From: Singulisphaera sp. GP187
GTDB lineage: Bacteria > Planctomycetota > Phycisphaerae > Phycisphaerales > SM1A02
Assembly: GCA_945862215.1 (NCBI GenBank)
Contig: CAMAXY010000001.1
Coordinates: 1-64,000 of the forward strand
Direction of reading: 5' to 3'
DNA length: 64,000 bases
In this document: in pieces, positions 7,241 to 51,983 of the stretch
How positions within the stretch are numbered: the first letter of the stretch is position 1
Layout: each line of letters starts with the position of its first letter
Translations under genes and position numbers: made by a program
The notes under the pieces: model-generated
The model's input: the letters and a program-made list of their open reading frames with translations, nothing else
Database searches by the model: none
Told to the model about the DNA's origin: nothing

Positions 7241-7269
7241 ACCGCAGGAGTAAATCCTGCGGTTTTTTC
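7241..7269 (+). terminator. Rho-independent terminator of the SYLF gene
   Basis: accgcagga and tcctgcggt make a perfect 9-bp stem with a 4-base loop, followed at once by a run of six T. It lies 40 bases after the SYLF stop. Confidence 0.9.
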
Positions 7270-7278
7270 TTTGCGCGG

Positions 7279-7602
7279 GAACAGCCACGGAAATGCATAA
7301 GTGATCAGCCGTGAAAAGATCCCGCCGGGCTCAGACAGTCCTCGGCGACCGACACGATCTGATTTACGAAATTTAATTGCAAGTGCCGTCGGCCGCCTGC
7401 GGAACTCGCCCGGCAGGATTTTTCAACGGCTGGGTACGCACACAGAAGCACGACGGAATCTGGAAAACGTTCGAGCGAGAATTTGATTCGCTCACGTGGG
7501 CAGCGGAATGATTTGAACCCCGGCGAGTTTGCAAGCCGAGCAAGTCTGCGCAGTTGTCTTGGCGCGCGCCATAGGGCGCGCTGGATTTCAGCGCGCAGCA
7601 TG
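7279..7602 (+). repeat. Structured dispersed intergenic repeat, copy 1
   Basis: About 324 bases that recur at 29976-30300 and, truncated, at 30429-30575. Outer stem: 7306-7330 pairs with 7408-7432 over about 23 bp, with small bulges. Inner stem: 7344-7353 pairs with 7388-7397 with one mismatch. The distal half (about 7480-7602) is the best-conserved part and ends in GC-rich hairpins sharing one strand (7564-7570 with 7575-7581, or 7576-7583 with 7589-7596). Together with bases 7603-7687, where I see nothing recognisable, it fills the gap between the SYLF terminator and the PEP-CTERM-like gene. Short frames inside it look spurious. Direction of transcription, if any, is unknown. Confidence 0.85.
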
Positions 7603-7687
7603 TTTGAGCGCCAGGATATGCGTCCCGCGGCGTTGACAAAAAACATTCCGTGGATTTGTTCGATGTATGCAGCGAATCAGTCCGTCT

Positions 7688-29274: not shown

Positions 29275-29901
29275 TCAAGCAGGATTCATAGCAGGTTGAT
29301 TGAAATGAGCTTCTTGCACTGGAACCACGACTTCAAGAACGCGTTGGAAGACTTGCGCGGGCGATCCCATCGCATCAATGTCTGAAACGATCGACTTTGG
29401 ATAGAACTCCAAGACTGGGAGAGTCTCTTTGTGATAAACCTCGAATCGATGTCGAATGACCTTATCGTCAGCATCATCCATTCTGTTTTCTTTGAGCGCT
29501 CTTTTCCGCATTCGCTGCATCATCGCATTCTCGTCGTTGCATCGAAGATGGATCACTTTGAAAACATCAAGAGAATTTTCTAGTTCACGAGCTTGGCCAA
29601 CATTTCTTGGGATGCCATCGAGCACGAGTAAATCTTGTTTGGGCTTATAAAGGCTGAGTACGGTTTGTGCATGCATGTTCTGGCGCCACATTTGAATTGT
29701 GAGTTCGTCTGGAACCAGTTCGCCACGCGAAGAAAAATTCAGAAACTGCTTACCAAGATCGCTCGTCATATCAAGCGAGCGAAAGACATCGCCGCAAGCC
29801 AAGTGAAAGAATCCGGGAATCTTTCCAAGAATCTTCCCTTGCGTTCCTTTTCCTGCACCAGGCGCGCCGAAGAGCAGAATGGACTTGTATCGATTAGGCA
29901 T
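29275..29901 (-). CDS. adk: Adenylate kinase-like nucleoside monophosphate kinase
   Basis: The 208-residue kinase has a P-loop FGAPGAGKGTQGK at residues 11-23, the NMP-binding segment HLACGDVFR and the conserved LVLDGIPRNVGQARELE. The LID is reduced to a short RKRALKENRMDDADDKVI stretch without zinc Cys residues, so this is the short-LID form. DGIPRN in place of the usual DGFPR and the unusual NMP region leave some doubt whether AMP is the only substrate. It is convergent with the PDZ gene. Upstream lies the long repeat-filled gap before recJ. Confidence 0.88.
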   Translation of the reverse strand: MPNRYKSILLFGAPGAGKGTQGKILGKIPGFFHLACGDVFRSLDMTSDLGKQFLNFSSRGELVPDELTIQMWRQNMHAQTVLSLYKPKQDLLVLDGIPRNVGQARELENSLDVFKVIHLRCNDENAMMQRMRKRALKENRMDDADDKVIRHRFEVYHKETLPVLEFYPKSIVSDIDAMGSPAQVFQRVLEVVVPVQEAHFNQPAMNPA

Positions 29902-29952: not shown

Positions 29953-29970
29953 TCGATCCACGGATACAGC
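29953..29970 (+). repeat. Left flanking direct repeat of the 29.98-30.6 kb repeat block
   Basis: tcgatccacggatacagc recurs with one change (t to c) at 30605-30622. The pair brackets repeat copies 2 and 3 and the tandem units between them. Confidence 0.6.
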
Positions 29971-29975
29971 GATGG

Positions 29976-30300
29976 AAACAGCCACGGAAATACATAAGTG
30001 AGCAGCCGTGAAAAGTCCTCTCGGGGCTCAGACAGTCCTCGGCGACCGACACGATCCGATTTGCGAAATTTTATTTGCAAGAGCCGTCGGCCGCCTGCGG
30101 AACTCGCCCGAGAGAACTTTTCAACGGCAGGGCACGCAAGAAGATGCGAGACGGAATCTGAAAAACGTTCGAGCGAGAATTTGATTCGCCAACGTGGGCA
30201 GAGGAATGATTTGAACCCCGGCGAGTTTGCAAGCCGAGCAAGTCTACGCAGTTGTCTTGGTGCGCGCCGGAGGGCGCGCTGGATTTCAGCGCGCAGCATG
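29976..30300 (+). repeat. Structured dispersed intergenic repeat, copy 2
   Basis: Full-length second copy in the adk-recJ gap, same orientation as copy 1. Outer stem 30003-30026 pairs with 30106-30130. The paired segment differs from copy 1 on both strands (gccggg/cccggc becomes ctcggg/cccgag), so pairing is kept. The distal 65-base block is almost unchanged, and the GC hairpins recur at 30261-30300 with loop ggag in place of atag. The 840-base gap 29902-30741 otherwise holds only the repeats listed here and a short recJ leader; I see no gene in it. Confidence 0.85.
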
Positions 30301-30301
30301 C

Positions 30302-30431
30302 GTGAGCCCGGTTGCAAATCAGTCCGCTGCCAAAATCTGCACGAACCACTTTTGAGTCCATGCATGTTTGAGCCCATGGGCAAATCAGTCCGCTGCCAAA
30401 ATCTGCACGAACCATATTTGAGTCCATGCAT
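30302..30431 (+). repeat. Two tandem ~65-base units between repeat copies 2 and 3
   Basis: Units 30302-30365 and 30366-30431 share a 34-base identical core (starting caaatcagtccgctgcc) and both end ttgagtccatgcat. The junction sequence catgtttgagc at 30363-30373 resembles the sequence right after copy 1 (7599-7609), suggesting the unit is part of the element's 3' side. Confidence 0.8.
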
Positions 30432-30575
30432 AAGTGAACAGCCGTGAAAAGTCCCCTTGGGGCTCAGACAGTCCTCGGCGACCGACAAGATCCGAATTGC
30501 GAAATTTTATTGCAAGTCCAGTCGGGGGGCCTGCGGAACTCGCCCGAGAGAACTTTTCAACGGCTGGGCACACAA
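30429..30575 (+). repeat. Structured dispersed intergenic repeat, copy 3 (truncated)
   Basis: This copy contains only the stem half of the element. The outer arms are 30439-30463 and 30542-30566. Its 5' arm reads ccccttgggg where the 3' arm keeps cccgagag, so several pairs are lost, and the inner stem is also damaged by extra G. It looks like a decaying partial copy. Confidence 0.8.
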
Positions 30576-30581
30576 GCTGTA

Positions 30582-30655
30582 GCGCGACGGACACAGCCGC
30601 GGAATCGATCCACGGACACAGCCGCGGACACAGCCAAGGAATCGGGCCACAACCG
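30582..30655 (+). repeat. Short imperfect GGACACAGCC-type reiterations
   Basis: acggacacagccgcgga, ccacggacacagccgcgga and cacagccaagga follow one another, and similar units flank copy 2 (29958-29990). The second unit contains the right flanking direct repeat at 30605-30622. Confidence 0.6.
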
Positions 30656-30741: not shown

Positions 30742-32490
30742 ATGAATGGTTGGTTGAAAAAATGGATTCTCCCTGCGGGCGTTCCCTCGGGCACGCTGAT
30801 GCAGCGAATTGCAATAGTGCGAGGAATTCCTGCAAGTTCTCTACCAAAGTTTATTGCGCCAACATTTGGCGATCTTGCGCCACCAAAAGAATTGCACGGA
30901 GCTGTTGAAGTTGGGCAGCGTCTCGCAGCCGCCGTGCGCGCTGGTCGCAAGGTCGCAATTTTTGGCGACTATGACGCAGATGGGATGTGCGCATCCGCAA
31001 TCTTGTTACATCTTATTCGCGCTGCACGACCAAACGATCCGCCCATCGTCTATATCCCAGAGCGCGCAACCGAAGGTTATGGTTTATCCGTCGCTGCAAT
31101 TCAGAATCTCGCATCGATTGGCGTGCAGACGATCATCTCTGTTGATTGTGGCGTGACTGCGATCGAAGAAGCGCGCGAGGCGCGTCGATTGGGTTTGGAA
31201 TTACTCATCACAGATCATCACACGATGCTTCCCGGCGGTGTCTTGCCAGATGTGGATGCAATCGCGCATCCTGGGCTCGGCGGTGGAACGACAGAACTCT
31301 GTGGCGCGGCAGTTGCTTGGAAAGTGGGATGGGCATTCTGTTGTGCATGGTGCGGCAGCGATCGAGTGCCGACAATACTTCGTGAATTGCTGGTGGAAAC
31401 GCTTGCGCTTGCCGCATTCGGCACAGTCGCGGATGTTGTCCCTCTTCGTGGCGAAAATCGTTTGATTGCACGACTTGGTGCTGCGCGAATTGCCAACAGT
31501 GGATTGCCAGGATTGCTCGCGTTGGCACGCGAGGCTGGCATCGGCGCAAATGATCGTGTTGATGCCGAGAGGATTTCTTTTGGCATCGCCCCGATCGTAA
31601 ATGCATGTGGTCGATTGGGTCGTCCACTTGATGCGGTGGCATTGCTTGGACTTCCATCGATTTCGCAAGAGGGCGGCGATACTGCAATGCTTCTTCGATC
31701 CGCCAAGCAGATGGCGTCTAACTTTAAGGAACTCAATAATCGCCGCAAGCAAGTTGAACGATTGATCGTCGATGCTGCATCTGCACGAATTGAAGAAGGC
31801 CTTGGTCGCGCACGCGGTGCATGTGTGCTCGCAGCGCCAGATTGGCCGCGAGGAGTCGTCGGAATCGCGTGTTCACGATTGGCTGAAATGTTTGCTGTTC
31901 CTGTCGTTTTGATGGAAAGCGAAGGCGACTTCGCGCATGGGTCCGCTCGAAGTGTTGAGGGATATTCCGTTTTGGGCGGACTTCATTCTTGTGCTGGGTT
32001 GCTCGAGCGATTTGGAGGACACGCAGCAGCTGCAGGCGTCGCAGTTCGCATGGATCGTCTTGATGCATTTCGCGAGGCGCTTTCTTCGCACGCTGCTGAA
32101 AACAGGAAGAATGATGAAGCGCCATCCATTCGCCCAGATGTCGAACTTCTTCCCTCCGATTTGACGATCGAATCATTCGAGGCGCTTGATGGGCTTGGCC
32201 CATTCGGTCGAACATTTCCTGCACCAACAGTATTTATTCGTGGCGCAGTTGTTTCGGCAGAGCCGCGCCTCTTTGGAGAAAAATCAGATCACTTAAGCAT
32301 CTTCGTGCGCATGGATGGTTCCGATGCAAGAGAAGTTCGCTGCACATGGTGGCGTCAAGCGGGGCAGTTCAACAGAGTGAAACGTGGTTCGCGTTTGAAC
32401 ATGATGGTAATTCCGCAGATCGATAGGTGGAATGGATCTCCGCGCCTGGCTTTTACGGTGATTGATGCGAACGAATGCGTTCCAGTCTGA
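30742..32490 (+). CDS. recJ: Single-stranded-DNA-specific exonuclease RecJ
   Basis: The 582-residue DHH phosphoesterase has GDYDADGMCAS (motif I), VDCGVTAIEEA (motif II), LLITDHHTMLPGG (DHH, motif III), a GAAVAWK motif and the DHHA1 domain with VVGIACSRLAEMF then a GGHAAAAG motif, and a C-terminal OB-like domain (LGPFGRTFPAPTVFIRGA). It digests single-stranded DNA 5' to 3' in recombination and repair. The ATG at 30742 follows the repeat-filled region. Confidence 0.94.
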   Translation: MNGWLKKWILPAGVPSGTLMQRIAIVRGIPASSLPKFIAPTFGDLAPPKELHGAVEVGQRLAAAVRAGRKVAIFGDYDADGMCASAILLHLIRAARPNDPPIVYIPERATEGYGLSVAAIQNLASIGVQTIISVDCGVTAIEEAREARRLGLELLITDHHTMLPGGVLPDVDAIAHPGLGGGTTELCGAAVAWKVGWAFCCAWCGSDRVPTILRELLVETLALAAFGTVADVVPLRGENRLIARLGAARIANSGLPGLLALAREAGIGANDRVDAERISFGIAPIVNACGRLGRPLDAVALLGLPSISQEGGDTAMLLRSAKQMASNFKELNNRRKQVERLIVDAASARIEEGLGRARGACVLAAPDWPRGVVGIACSRLAEMFAVPVVLMESEGDFAHGSARSVEGYSVLGGLHSCAGLLERFGGHAAAAGVAVRMDRLDAFREALSSHAAENRKNDEAPSIRPDVELLPSDLTIESFEALDGLGPFGRTFPAPTVFIRGAVVSAEPRLFGEKSDHLSIFVRMDGSDAREVRCTWWRQAGQFNRVKRGSRLNMMVIPQIDRWNGSPRLAFTVIDANECVPV

Positions 32491-45810: not shown

Positions 45811-46476
<666 letters not shown>

Positions 46477-47744: not shown

Positions 47745-50700
47745 TTATGGGTTTGAAGGTTCGATCGGCGCAATAGGATCAACCGGCTTTCCACCAGTCT
47801 TGTCTGGCATAATCAACTTATGCTTTTCAACCATTTTTTCAGTTTCGGAGTTGAGAGGCTTCGAAAGAACTTCGAGGCGTTCTCGCTCATCGGCATTGAA
47901 GTTAGTGTCATTCTCATCTGGAGTGTCCACAACGGTTGGTGTCACAAAGATCAGCAGTTCTTTACTCGATGAATTTGAATTCTTGTTGCTAAAAAAGAAA
48001 TCGAGAATTGGAATTTCGCCAAGAATTGGGAATCCGTTCGATTCTTTGGCTTGAGATTCCACGCGAACTCCGCTGATGCACACAGTCTGTTCATTTTTGA
48101 CAGTGATTATCGTATTTGTCGATCGTCTGGAAATCACGGGGTTACCGCTTCCCCCAACATTGAGAGCCGAGGTTGTGTTGATATTCGAGAGCAGCACTTT
48201 GATTTCCATGGCCACATTCTTTTCTTTCGTAATGCGTGGTCGCACATTCAAGCCAATACCGACAGGAATCTGATCGAAACTGGATGTTGTTCCGCCACCG
48301 GTAGTTCCGCCAGTTGTGGATCCTGTAAGGAATGGAACGTCATCGCCAGCAAAGAATTCCGCCAACTGGTTGTCGCTGGTAAAGACGCGTGGTTGTTGAA
48401 GAATCCGAACCGAAGTATCTCGTTGAAGTGCTTGCAAAATGACGGTCGCATCAACACCGAAAATGAAGTTTGAAGTGTTCAGATCTCCAGGGAAAATATT
48501 GTCCTTACTGCCTTCAAATTGTGTGTCGATGACAACTGCATTGTTGGGATTCGCAGGAGTAATGCTTCCGTTTGGTCCAAATTGAATTCCCATAGCAAAC
48601 AGATCGCCGAGTTCGACCTCCGCCAAAATGCTCGAAATCATGACTTGTCTTCCAGGCTGATCAAGTTCAGCGATGAGCGTCAGAACTGCAGTCTGTATCT
48701 CAGGAGTAGCAAGGACCAGCAGCGAGTTTTGGTTTGCATTTGGTACGACGCGACTCTTCCCGATCACAGCGCTGACTTCGGTGGCCTGAGCGCCATTCGC
48801 GCCGCCTCGCGCATTCTGCCATGGAAATTCAATCGTGGTCCCGGCGGTCGTTCCACCAGATCCTGAGCCAGTACCTGTGGTATTCGAAGAGTCTGTGGCT
48901 CCTCCAGCATCGAAAGCCGAACTTGGATCGGAGACACCTTGATCAGGCGCAGTAATCCCTGCACCAGATCCACTCTCAGCGAGCAATGCGTTAATAATTT
49001 CAGCGAGTAAAACTGCGCTCGCATATTTCAGCTGAACATTTGTCGGCATTCCAACTGTCAGAGGCGTATCGATCTTTGAGAGGAGTTCATCAAGCCACAC
49101 AAAGTTGTCTGGAGTCTTAGTGACGATGATCAGACGATTTGAATCCGGATACGCCTCGATTCGAAAGATATTCGCCACGGCAACATCCGCGCCTGAGTCG
49201 CCGCCACCGCCGCCACCGCCGCCAGCAAGTCTGGTTGCTCCGCCTCGCGCTCCTCCGCTCTGTGAGCGGCTCGCAGCACCAGATTCGAGAAGTGACTGCA
49301 GCAGGTCTTTCACTTTGAGCGGGTCCGTGTACTTCAAGTCGTACGACTTGAAAATCGCGCCGTTTTTCGTAGGAGGAACATCCCACGATGTCGCAATCAT
49401 CTCGCCAATCTTTTCCAGTGTGTGCGGGTCAGATCGAACTGTGATCGAGTTTGTAGCAGCAAGAACTGTAACAACCAGAGTTGGTCCATCAGCGCCACCG
49501 GCCGCAGGAGCAGCGGGTTGATTTGGATTCTGTCCTGGTCTTTGATTTTGTCGAGCAGGTGTTCGTCCTGCGGTTGCAGTGCTTCCCGAGCCAGAAAAGA
49601 TCGCTGTAATCGCGTCAGAGATCAAAGTTGCATCTGCATTTCGAATATGAAATGTCTCGGTCCGAGTGTCGGAAAACGGCGAGACATCCAAAACATTGAT
49701 CATGTCCTGGCAGCGTTTGGCCAAACCCACGTCGCCCTCAAGAATGATCTGATTTGAATTGTTGTCGACATCCAACTTCGCATAATCGGGCATCGAAGAA
49801 CTCAATCGGTCATAAATCGATTGAGCGCGCGTATTTTCAATGCCAAAAATCTTAATGACAACTTGACCATTTTCTTCAAGGCGCAAAACGTCGACAGATG
49901 GTCCAAGGACCATCGCAGGTTGCAATTTTCCGACATTTGTCAACATGTCCACCATGATCAGTTCATCGGTCTCGACAACGCCGATGTCATTCAGTCGAAA
50001 TGCTTGAAAAATTAATTCGAGGGCCTTGAGGCGGCTGATTGGTTTGTCGTTGAGGATGCTGATGACTTGCGTACGAAGTTGAGCAATCCTCGGAATGACG
50101 GCTTTCCCAGTGCATTCCATGATGAACGGGAAGAGGTCTTCGACTTTCGTTTCTTTGAAATTAATCATGACAGTTTCAGTCATGTCAACTTGTCTTCGAT
50201 CTGAGCGAAACTGGCGGATGATCGGTGGTGTTACTGTATTTAGCAGCGTCAGATCCGCAGTAGGTTGAGCGTTGTTGATATCAACATCAATTGGTACTTC
50301 TGCTGGTGGCGCGGCCTGCGCTACTGGTGCAACTGGCACAACGACTGGCGCGGGAACTGGCGCAACTGGCACTGGCGCGACGACTGGTTCAACGACTGGT
50401 TGGACGACTGGCGCGACGACTGGCACAACTGGCACTGGGACAACTGGCACTGGCGCGACGACTGGTTCAACAACTGGCACTGGCACAACTGGCACTGGCG
50501 CGACGACTGTCGCGGGAACTGGCACAACGACTGGCACAACTGGCGCTGGCACAACTGGAACCGGCACAACGACTGGCGCGGGAACTGGCACAACTGGAAC
50601 CGGCACAACTGGAACCGGCACTGGCACTGTCGCGGGAACTCTGGGCTGAGTATTCGGCTGAACTCCTCGACTCGAGGGCGACTGAATCGCAGCAGTGGCA

Positions 50701-50840: not shown

Positions 50841-51983
50841 TCAACGATAAAAACTAGATTGCCGTTCTCGAAGAAGTCCAAATTCGCTTCGCAGTCGATC
50901 TTGGGTGGCTTGGTCAAGCCCTTGGGATTGACGCGCTCGCGCCACACGCGCAAGTGCCGCTGCGACATCGCCTTGTGACATCGCAGAAATCTGTTCAGGG
51001 GTGATTGGCAGCAGCGTTGAACCTTCCGGGGTGCCAGTTACCGCAGGAGGCGGCAGTTGGGGTTGGTTGCTTCTATTCGCCCCTACAGCAGATCTCCCAG
51101 AAGACGGCCGAGGCGATCGCGGCGCTTCTCTTTGTGCGTCTGGTGCGTCTGGGTTGGGTTCATCATTCGTATCAACAGAGGACTGTGCAGGAACAGGTGG
51201 AGCGATTGGAGCGATCGGACTCGCAGGAATTGTTCCTTGAGTTGTTCCTTGAGTTGTTCCTTGAGTTATTCCTTGAGTTAATCCTTGAGTTAATCCTTGA
51301 GCCTGTTCGCTCGCTGCAGATTTTTCATTCGCATTCGGTACGCGGATGGCTGGAAATTTTATCGCGGAAGAACTTGAGTTCCCAGCAGTATTCAGTTTCG
51401 ACATATCCGTCGGCGCCCAGACCGCAACGGAATAAATCCCACCCATATGTCCAATTCGAACATTGGTTGGTGGCTCGACTGCGAGGATTTGAATTCCATT
51501 TTTTTCTTCCCCAACCTGAATTGTTAGGTCGCTTCCGAAGAAGATCATTCGACCAAGCATGCCTGTTGGCTTCGTTCCGGTGTATTCCGAAGGCGCAGAT
51601 GGTGGTGGCGGAGGCGGAGGTGGTGGAGGCGGTGCAACGGGCGCAGCAGGTGGTGGCGCCGGCCTTGGTGGTGGTGATGGCATCGTGAACAAACTGCGTC
51701 CAGTAAAACGATCGACGGATACTTTGACCAATGAATCATGCTTTTCAATTGCTTTGTTCATCGCAGAATTCGTCTCGCTTTCGTTCTGCGATGTCATGAG
51801 CGTCACGGCAATTGGAAACAACTGTGCTGCGACGACCCATCCGCAAACTGCGAGTGCGAGGAAACTGCCTATCAACGGAATTGACCAGCGGGGATCTAAT
51901 CCAAAGCGAAAATCATTTGTGCTGCGTTGATTGCTGGTTGATCTTTGTCCAGACGCATTCGAGGAACTTGCAAGGTCGCTCAT
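50841..51983 (-). CDS. GspC-like inner-membrane protein with shared C-terminal module
   Basis: The 380-residue protein has a cytoplasmic N-terminus, a membrane segment at about 34-56 (WSIPLIGSFLALAVCGWVV), a poly-Pro linker around 103-128 and a small beta domain at about 135-195 (IQVGEEKNGIQILAVEPPTN, then VRIGHMGGIYSVAVWAP). A 12-base-repeat-coded TQG stretch lies near 228-250, then a Pro/Arg linker, and a C-terminal module of about 50 residues starting LPITPEQISAMSQGDVAAAL. Position just before gspD and topology fit GspC, although the sequence is not a clear GspC HR domain. The C-terminal module is repeated in the GspL-like protein. ATG 51983 overlaps the gspM-like stop. Confidence 0.78.
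   Translation of the reverse strand: MSDLASSSNASGQRSTSNQRSTNDFRFGLDPRWSIPLIGSFLALAVCGWVVAAQLFPIAVTLMTSQNESETNSAMNKAIEKHDSLVKVSVDRFTGRSLFTMPSPPPRPAPPPAAPVAPPPPPPPPPPPSAPSEYTGTKPTGMLGRMIFFGSDLTIQVGEEKNGIQILAVEPPTNVRIGHMGGIYSVAVWAPTDMSKLNTAGNSSSSAIKFPAIRVPNANEKSAASEQAQGLTQGLTQGITQGTTQGTTQGTIPASPIAPIAPPVPAQSSVDTNDEPNPDAPDAQREAPRSPRPSSGRSAVGANRSNQPQLPPPAVTGTPEGSTLLPITPEQISAMSQGDVAAALARVARARQSQGLDQATQDRLRSEFGLLRERQSSFYR
51231..51302 (-). repeat. Six tandem 12-base units within the gspC-like gene
   Basis: tgttccttgagt repeats three times exactly, then with changes to tattcc and taatcc. It encodes the TQGxTQGx stretch of the GspC-like protein. Copy number could vary between strains. Confidence 0.9.

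Follow-up and report, generated by a model that had tools for sequence, protein, structure and literature searches.

A dispersed family of probable REP/BIME-like hairpin DNA with a fixed internal loop and free arms in planctomycete-like bacteria

The REPs described so far are located mainly between genes that are co-directional or convergent, those of the CGTC kind lack a dedicated transposase, and how the latter spread is open (PMC3733652). The account in PMC6006769 adds that GTGG is also accepted as a REP foot, and that the class 3 TnpA-Y1 enzymes, which are rare and mainly planctomycete, go with atypical hairpins with a CnGA foot, present in about 600 copies in one host. TnpA-REP, IntI and IS200 enzymes are described as recognising a folded single strand through its unpaired bases (PMC8266576). 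The family reported here is palindromic, dispersed and mosaic, its matched arms are exchanged as pairs and its internal loop is kept. We consider it probable that it is a non-coding, REP/BIME-like family of hairpin DNA; it is new in its build, since a fixed inner loop and free arms set it apart from REP/BIME. The preliminary description had not recognised it as any known family, and we did not recognise it as already described either, judging the literature largely from titles and abstracts.

The window, i.e., the whole stretch of 64,000 nucleotides that was analysed, comes from genome G000, and the other G numbers denote relatives. The three copies noted previously in it (7279-7602, 29976-30300 and the truncated 30429-30575) are present as reported (Table 1), and the long outer stem was borne out, with 7306-7330 pairing with 7408-7432 in copy 1. 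The conserved 120-base block that had been placed behind this stem exists as well, but it forms another hairpin of this type, oppositely oriented and here called B. The order of a full composite is 12-mers (GGAnACAGCCAC), GCATAAGTG, hairpin A, a linker, hairpin B, module C in at least one copy and a GCGTCCCGCGGCG end, and at many loci A only, or truncated strings, are found. In copy 2, the second arm of B falls within module C and the 3' motif of B has decayed to TGCGTGAGC. Allowing up to 2 mismatches, we found the doubled 12-mer at 12 genomic places, every one adjoining element copies, and in some copies of G008 and G015 its position holds different short tandem repeats. At loci L130, L131 and L142 of these two genomes, repeats in tandem with a period of about 12 bases, read by eye, flank the elements, and their sequence is species-specific. 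Other tandem or low-complexity repeats of the window were observed at 46143-46303, 50332-50640 and 51233-51301 (CGACGA; ACTGGCACAACG; TTCCTTGAGTTA at 96% matches).

Table 1. Coordinates of the element parts in the window
Feature	Position	Strand	Details
Left-hand 12-mer, GGAnACAGCCAC type, ahead of hairpin A	7278-7291	+	
A hairpin, copy 1, arm type I	7306-7432	-	motif strand minus
Core of A, copy 1 (GCGAGTT, inner stem, TGTCTGAGC)	7329-7409	-	motif pattern search
B hairpin, copy 1	7499-7633	+	core 7523-7609, left arm 7499-7522
Right arm of B, copy 1	7610-7633		other arm type than the left arm, chimera
12-mers left of copy 2	29962-29988	+	
A hairpin, copy 2, arm type II	30003-30130	-	core 30026-30107
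B hairpin, copy 2	30197-30331	+	arms 30197-30220 and 30308-30331
Module C, first copy, end ...gagtccatgcat	30302-30365	+	
Module C, second tandem copy	30366-30431	+	
A hairpin, copy 3 (A alone)	30439-30566	-	core 30462-30543
12-mer array following copy 3	30588-30643	+	TRF row 30588-30635, period 12

Further copies exist: the query 7250-7620 gave 75 matches in G000 (2.79 Mb), where the 38 merged segments retrieved carry copies. Two contigs of this genome, C1 (end 142938) and C44 (end 19477), break off at an identical position within an element copy; thus, the assembly is interrupted by the repeat, and the number of copies given here is a minimum. The same query matched 14 of the 101 genomes searched, G000 included, and the dense matches were those of G000, G002, G008, G010, G012 and G016, i.e., the own species and five further species of the genus. 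The covariance-model search that had been proposed from the first reading, carried out with an A-hairpin model of 79 copies and scoring 12 candidates per genome, matched 12 of 251 genomes, eleven in the own genus and one (G019) in a neighbouring genus. By the motif pattern, 85 of 301 relatives had a match, many at background level; this pattern fixes the exact motif, hence motif invariance among its matches is not evidence. The counts per strand were 40+37 in G000, 34+20 in G012, 20+25 in G002, 14+29 in G016, 17+17 in G010, 9+12 in G008, 2+10 in G014 and 7+7 in G009, compared with 0 to 3 per strand for a backward control pattern (0+0 in G000). A clear excess was found in the own genus and in g40 (up to 13 per strand), g26 and g16; in other families of the order the pattern was near background. 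Within the own genus, the pattern had 0 matches in G001, G004 and G013, one in G018 and two each in G005 and G017. Among the matches listed for an exact 24-base A pattern, planctomycete or uncultured MAGs were found; among viral contigs, this pattern had 0 matches, and blastn with the 371-base query returned no plasmid or phage match.

The unit consists of two stems, outer and inner, with an asymmetric internal loop between them in which GCGAGTT faces TGTYTGAGC. In four genera these strings, or their complement, are unpaired between the outer and the inner stem; in a fifth genus the loop motif has a one-base variant, and in G019 (g2) the outer stem is still paired and the motif reads TGTCGGAGC. 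In g40, g26, g16 and, in the own genus, class C (G003, G006, G009 and G011), the motif separates a long outer stem from an inner one, the terminal stem of class C occurring as GGACC/GGTCC, GGGGC/GCCCC and GCGGC/GCCGC. Distant covariance-model matches retain GCTCARACA ... ACTCGC on stems that are unrelated yet paired, such as GGTCCCAGG/CCTGGGACC in G015. Since these matches came without the motif being fixed, those in G015, G017 and G005, which were obtained without the motif pattern and retain the motif, are independent support for the invariance of the loop. The inner stems of G008 read GGCGAC/GTCGCC at C37, GGCGGC/GCCGCC at C10 and GGAAGC/GCTTGCC at the copy-1 site, and near-identical cores bear several outer arms, each paired with its own partner, at least three in G190 and at least four in G176. 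Tandem sheared G.A pairs (GC-GA-G / T-GA-GC) might close the loop.

The pairing of the arms was evaluated in 316 distinct copies, which fell into 35 groups by their 24-nt left arms (<60% ungapped identity). The duplex energy of the outer arms had a mean of -25.7 in cis versus -12.6 (sd 4.7) in trans, and in 19 of the 35 groups the pairing in cis was better than with the right arm of any other group. Energies of -29 or lower were found in 20 groups, two of which are A arms offset by one base; 12 groups, judged by genome to be chance matches, were unpaired (-7 to -21), and the three further weak groups consist of two with G014/G019-type copies cut at the inner motif and one half element. For the inner arms, the means were -19.8 in 16 real groups and -8.0 in 14 control groups, with the half element among the controls; the best pairing was in cis in 9 of the 16, and one G015 group was outpaired by 12 of 29 trans partners. 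Among 22 distinct g40 cores, 92.7% of the cells were paired versus 89.5% in shuffles (0/500), cells with both-sided change were 10 versus 4.4 (0/500) and the covariation score was 0.123 versus 0.061 (0/500), and the inner-stem pair 16-34 was seen as G-U, U-A, A-U and G-C. In the same cores, pairs with both-sided change (2 versus 1.9) and further pair types (6 versus 5.9) were not above the shuffles.

This evidence for the stems from relatives is stronger than the covariation within the own family, which taken alone would be weak support. Among 79 A copies, 49 have arms II/II, 24 have arms I/I and 6 are chimeras, so that the arms match in 73 of 79 (Fisher's p 2e-14), a value that counts haplotypes rather than events because the copies are related. 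The compensatory changes had originally been read from gccggg/cccggc in copy 1 and ctcggg/cccgag in copy 2, taken as the same columns. In our reading of the A-copy alignment, the columns are not strictly the same, the 5' arms being of equal length and the paired register one base off, and the two both-sided changes are not independent, since they form one block difference between two arm haplotypes. RNAalifold on A1 gave 20 pairs, 4 of them with both-sided change, and a covariation term of -0.35. The arm duplexes of the window A copies have energies of -39.2, -34.6 and -30.4 kcal/mol; the arms of copy-2 B, which pair via the following module, reach -26.3 kcal/mol, and the chimeric arms of copy-1 B -12.4 kcal/mol, the level of unrelated arms. 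In five foldings (four stretches, one of them on both strands), z was -2.1 to -5.0 for DNA and -3.0 to -5.8 for RNA, with 0 to 4 of 200 shuffles folding equally well; the copy-2 B hairpin had a DNA z of -4.59.

Regarding the gene context, 25 of 32 resolved clusters in G000 (8 of 40 at contig edges being excluded) and 36 of 43 in five relatives (37 of 80 excluded) lie between convergent genes. Convergent pairs make up 10 of 48 in the window and 74 of 350 at the relatives' loci, background counts that take in the element-bearing pairs, and the excess has binomial p values of 7e-12 (G000) and 3e-18 (relatives). The gene caller, a simple hexamer model, missed a gene at 29275-29901 (-), which by eye reads as adenylate kinase, adk (MPNRYKSILLFGAPGAGK...); as a consequence site 2, called (+,+), is divergent, and its orthologue in G012 (L250) was miscalled likewise. 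Thus copies 2 and 3, located between the divergent genes 29275-29901 (-) and 30742-32490 (+), are an exception to the convergent rule of the genus. In the other groups (98 copies, 20 at contig edges and 4 overlapping genes being excluded), the 74 resolved copies are 21 convergent, 26 divergent and 27 co-directional. These groups are intergenic (gene-call overlap 4/98) and random in orientation relative to the genes (14 versus 13), with no 3' preference; since their contexts are mixed, the convergent preference is a trait of the A composites, not of the superfamily.

Orthologous sites were compared across species. At site 1, A is present in G012, G010, G016, G002 and G008. At site 2, A is present in G012, G002 and G008, G016 has 12-mers only, and the element is absent in G001, G005, G015 and G018. 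Such persistence at shared sites across species suggests little recent movement. In addition, 12 flank pairs were searched in five genomes and six of the sites were read. Element-free orthologous sites were found in G008 (C11b, C8 and C17) and in G015 (C37), and at these four sites, the flanks of which are partly decayed, a target-site duplication was not visible by eye. Only an apparent outer-stem remnant is left at C8 in G002 and a module C remnant at C17 in G016, and at C11b G015 has unrelated DNA. At the element-free C8 of G008 (L311), a two-way intrinsic terminator was recognised by eye in the place that the element occupies in others. An inverted repeat resembling a terminator (gggcaac..cgtgtcg ttttt cgacac..gttgccc) was also observed inside the copies of L060 (C5 of G000), L029 (C10 of G000) and L319 (G012), and in G015 (L139:631-982) the element directly adjoins the tmRNA gene.

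The preliminary description had seen in the compensatory changes the signature of selection on RNA, or on hairpin DNA, structure. A dispersed intergenic element with a real stem, compensatory change, copies in relatives and no Rfam match stood, selection on RNA was not supported, and hairpin DNA proved to be the better half of the claim. An RNA family is not proved by compensatory change alone: DNA palindromes have it as well, and template switching at palindromes can itself yield it (PMC8794818). As a structured RNA, the element would be a 3'-UTR hairpin in the transcripts of the genes ending next to it, where it would terminate transcription, stabilise the mRNA end or bind a protein. Such an RNA would account for the placement of the A family, convergent in 61 of 75 resolved clusters and at a median of about 66 bp between stop codon and A stem in 36 convergent copies of the relatives, and for the strong RNA folding; the loop ends could make tandem G.A pairs, and co-directional A copies favour one sense by 10 versus 2 as called (p 0.04), or by 8 versus 2 (p 0.11) without site 2 and its G012 orthologue. 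We consider this explanation unlikely, since the other groups occur in all gene contexts with random orientation, 26 of 74 being divergent, within one element the motif of A is on the strand opposite to that of B in the pairs listed, and the A stems read in the window are not followed by a T-run. In addition, G.T versus A.C mismatches counted by distinct position were 55:40 in the outer and 37:35 in the inner stem, which is no strand bias; raw cells lean to G.T (429:178 and 361:144, respectively), mostly from related A copies. This test favours neither strand as the folded one and does not single out RNA. Rfam gave 0 matches at gathering score in the window and ten relative loci; in four loci, the tmRNA gene beside an element of G015, a weak RF02163 and a sub-threshold RF04247 (38.9 versus 41 bits) in tandem repeats beside an element of G008 were seen. 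A tentative likeness of GGAAAGUCC to RNase P was dropped. For the A composites of the own genus an RNA role is possible, and their convergent placement could be a sign of it. Passive palindromes, the arms of which are kept by template-switch repair and the copies spread by ordinary recombination or duplication, would need neither recognition nor function. Template switching is described as making and maintaining stems (PMC8794818), and the arm chimeras and mosaics are marks of recombination; but in such palindromes the loop mismatches should be repaired or drift, and GCGAGTT/TGTYTGAGC recurs on unrelated stems in four genera and is kept by the independent model matches of three genomes, which makes this reading improbable, although G019 reads TGTCGGAGC.

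A mobilising enzyme was searched as well. PF01797 (IS200-type/Y1 transposase) had 0 matches in the 20 genomes of a first set and matches in 2 of the 10 genomes of a second set, i.e., in 2 of 30 overall, at three loci where the core motif is absent and one half motif lies in L436; mobilisation by RAYT/IS200 was rejected on these grounds. One locus of G115, a host of the g26 subfamily (L437), encodes a RAYT-like HUH protein with NHFHL, which we take to be the HUH signature, and the core of the element is absent from this 3.3-kb locus. When the protein was searched in 25 genomes, good matches were obtained in G115 and G263 only, the same two genomes as for PF01797, the remaining five rows having E values from 0.017 to 0.09. 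The copies might also be what remains of an ancient insertion sequence or MITE family after its transposase was lost from most genomes. The element-free sites in some species, the hosts searched, in most of which a transposase was not found, and the planctomycete class 3 TnpA with atypical hairpins, amplified in one host (PMC6006769), are in line with such an origin, which we regard as very unlikely, considering that no target duplication and no terminal repeats of fixed sequence were seen and that the arms vary between subfamilies within one genome.

Thus, a REP/BIME-like hairpin DNA family, the units of which are combined as intergenic mosaics of opposite A and B, module C and 12-mers, is in our opinion the probable explanation. 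The hairpins would form when the DNA is single-stranded in replication, or as cruciforms, and a putative hairpin-binding nuclease or transposase-like factor would read the internal loop and spread them; by analogy with TnpA-REP, IntI and IS200 enzymes, we infer that the folded single strand is recognised through the loop. The arms may stay complementary partly via template switching between them, as the mechanism is presented in PMC8794818, and recombination between copies would swap arms. In the own genus, selection may account for the long composites remaining where convergent genes have their 3' ends; there they might incidentally supply hairpins to terminators or mRNA ends. Counting against this explanation are the mobilising enzyme not found (PF01797 in 2 of 30 genomes, with the core motif absent there), the target-site duplication not seen by eye at the four element-free sites, and the unmatched-arm chimeras (6 of 79 A copies plus copy-1 B), together with the persistence at shared sites, the convergent placement in the own genus, the inner-arm groups that pair better in trans and the g40 pairs with both-sided change, the number of which is at the level of the shuffles. 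We advance only tentatively that the fixed internal loop is the sole recognition signal, read by a single-strand hairpin enzyme unrelated to IS200/RAYT, with the stems as exchangeable cassettes. An unpaired signal kept in at least four genera while the stems change is a handle for finding a protein that binds the folded strand, and bears on the open question of how palindromic repeats spread in genomes without RAYT.

Compared with the REPs as portrayed in PMC3733652, the family likewise consists of palindromes dispersed in intergenic DNA, with inverted pairs and with subfamilies whose arms have changed in a complementary way, and its A composites share a location between convergent and co-directional genes, near stop codons; the copies are many, intergenic and frequently at 3' ends. 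The palindrome of a REP measures 20-40 bp, whereas the elements described here are about 100-130 nt long (127 nt for the copy-1 A hairpin, 7306-7432), with two stems and a fixed internal loop. A REP foot, i.e., an unpaired terminal GTAG/GTGG or CGTC, is not conserved in the A copies: over the 8 nt preceding the stem, GTAG and CGTC were found in 0 and GTGG in 23 of the 74 copies examined (5 being without anchor), the GTGG sitting at an alignment column that reads A, G or T, and CGTC is at the other foot in 6 copies. In one g40 arm type, however, all copies examined (17 of 17) have a CGTC foot. A PF01797 gene flanked by the element, as in a REPtron, was not found in the 30 genomes searched. By description, the atypical hairpins, high copy number and planctomycete hosts resemble class 3 TnpA-Y1 (PMC6006769), which differs in a 5' CnGA foot and an adjoining class 3 gene, most hosts here being without a PF01797 match. 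The CTGA of the present elements lies within the loop, not at the foot. Integron attC sites bear R''/R' and L''/L' boxes in the folded strand, with the box consensus GTTRRRY, and by eye we saw no box of this consensus in the element. Like ERIC, BOX, REPIN and other mosaic repeats, the family is modular, non-coding, palindromic and intergenic; to our knowledge, none of these repeats combines a fixed loop with free arms. With A on the minus and B on the plus strand, module C in tandem and 12-mers, the composites have the alternating-orientation mosaic structure of a BIME.
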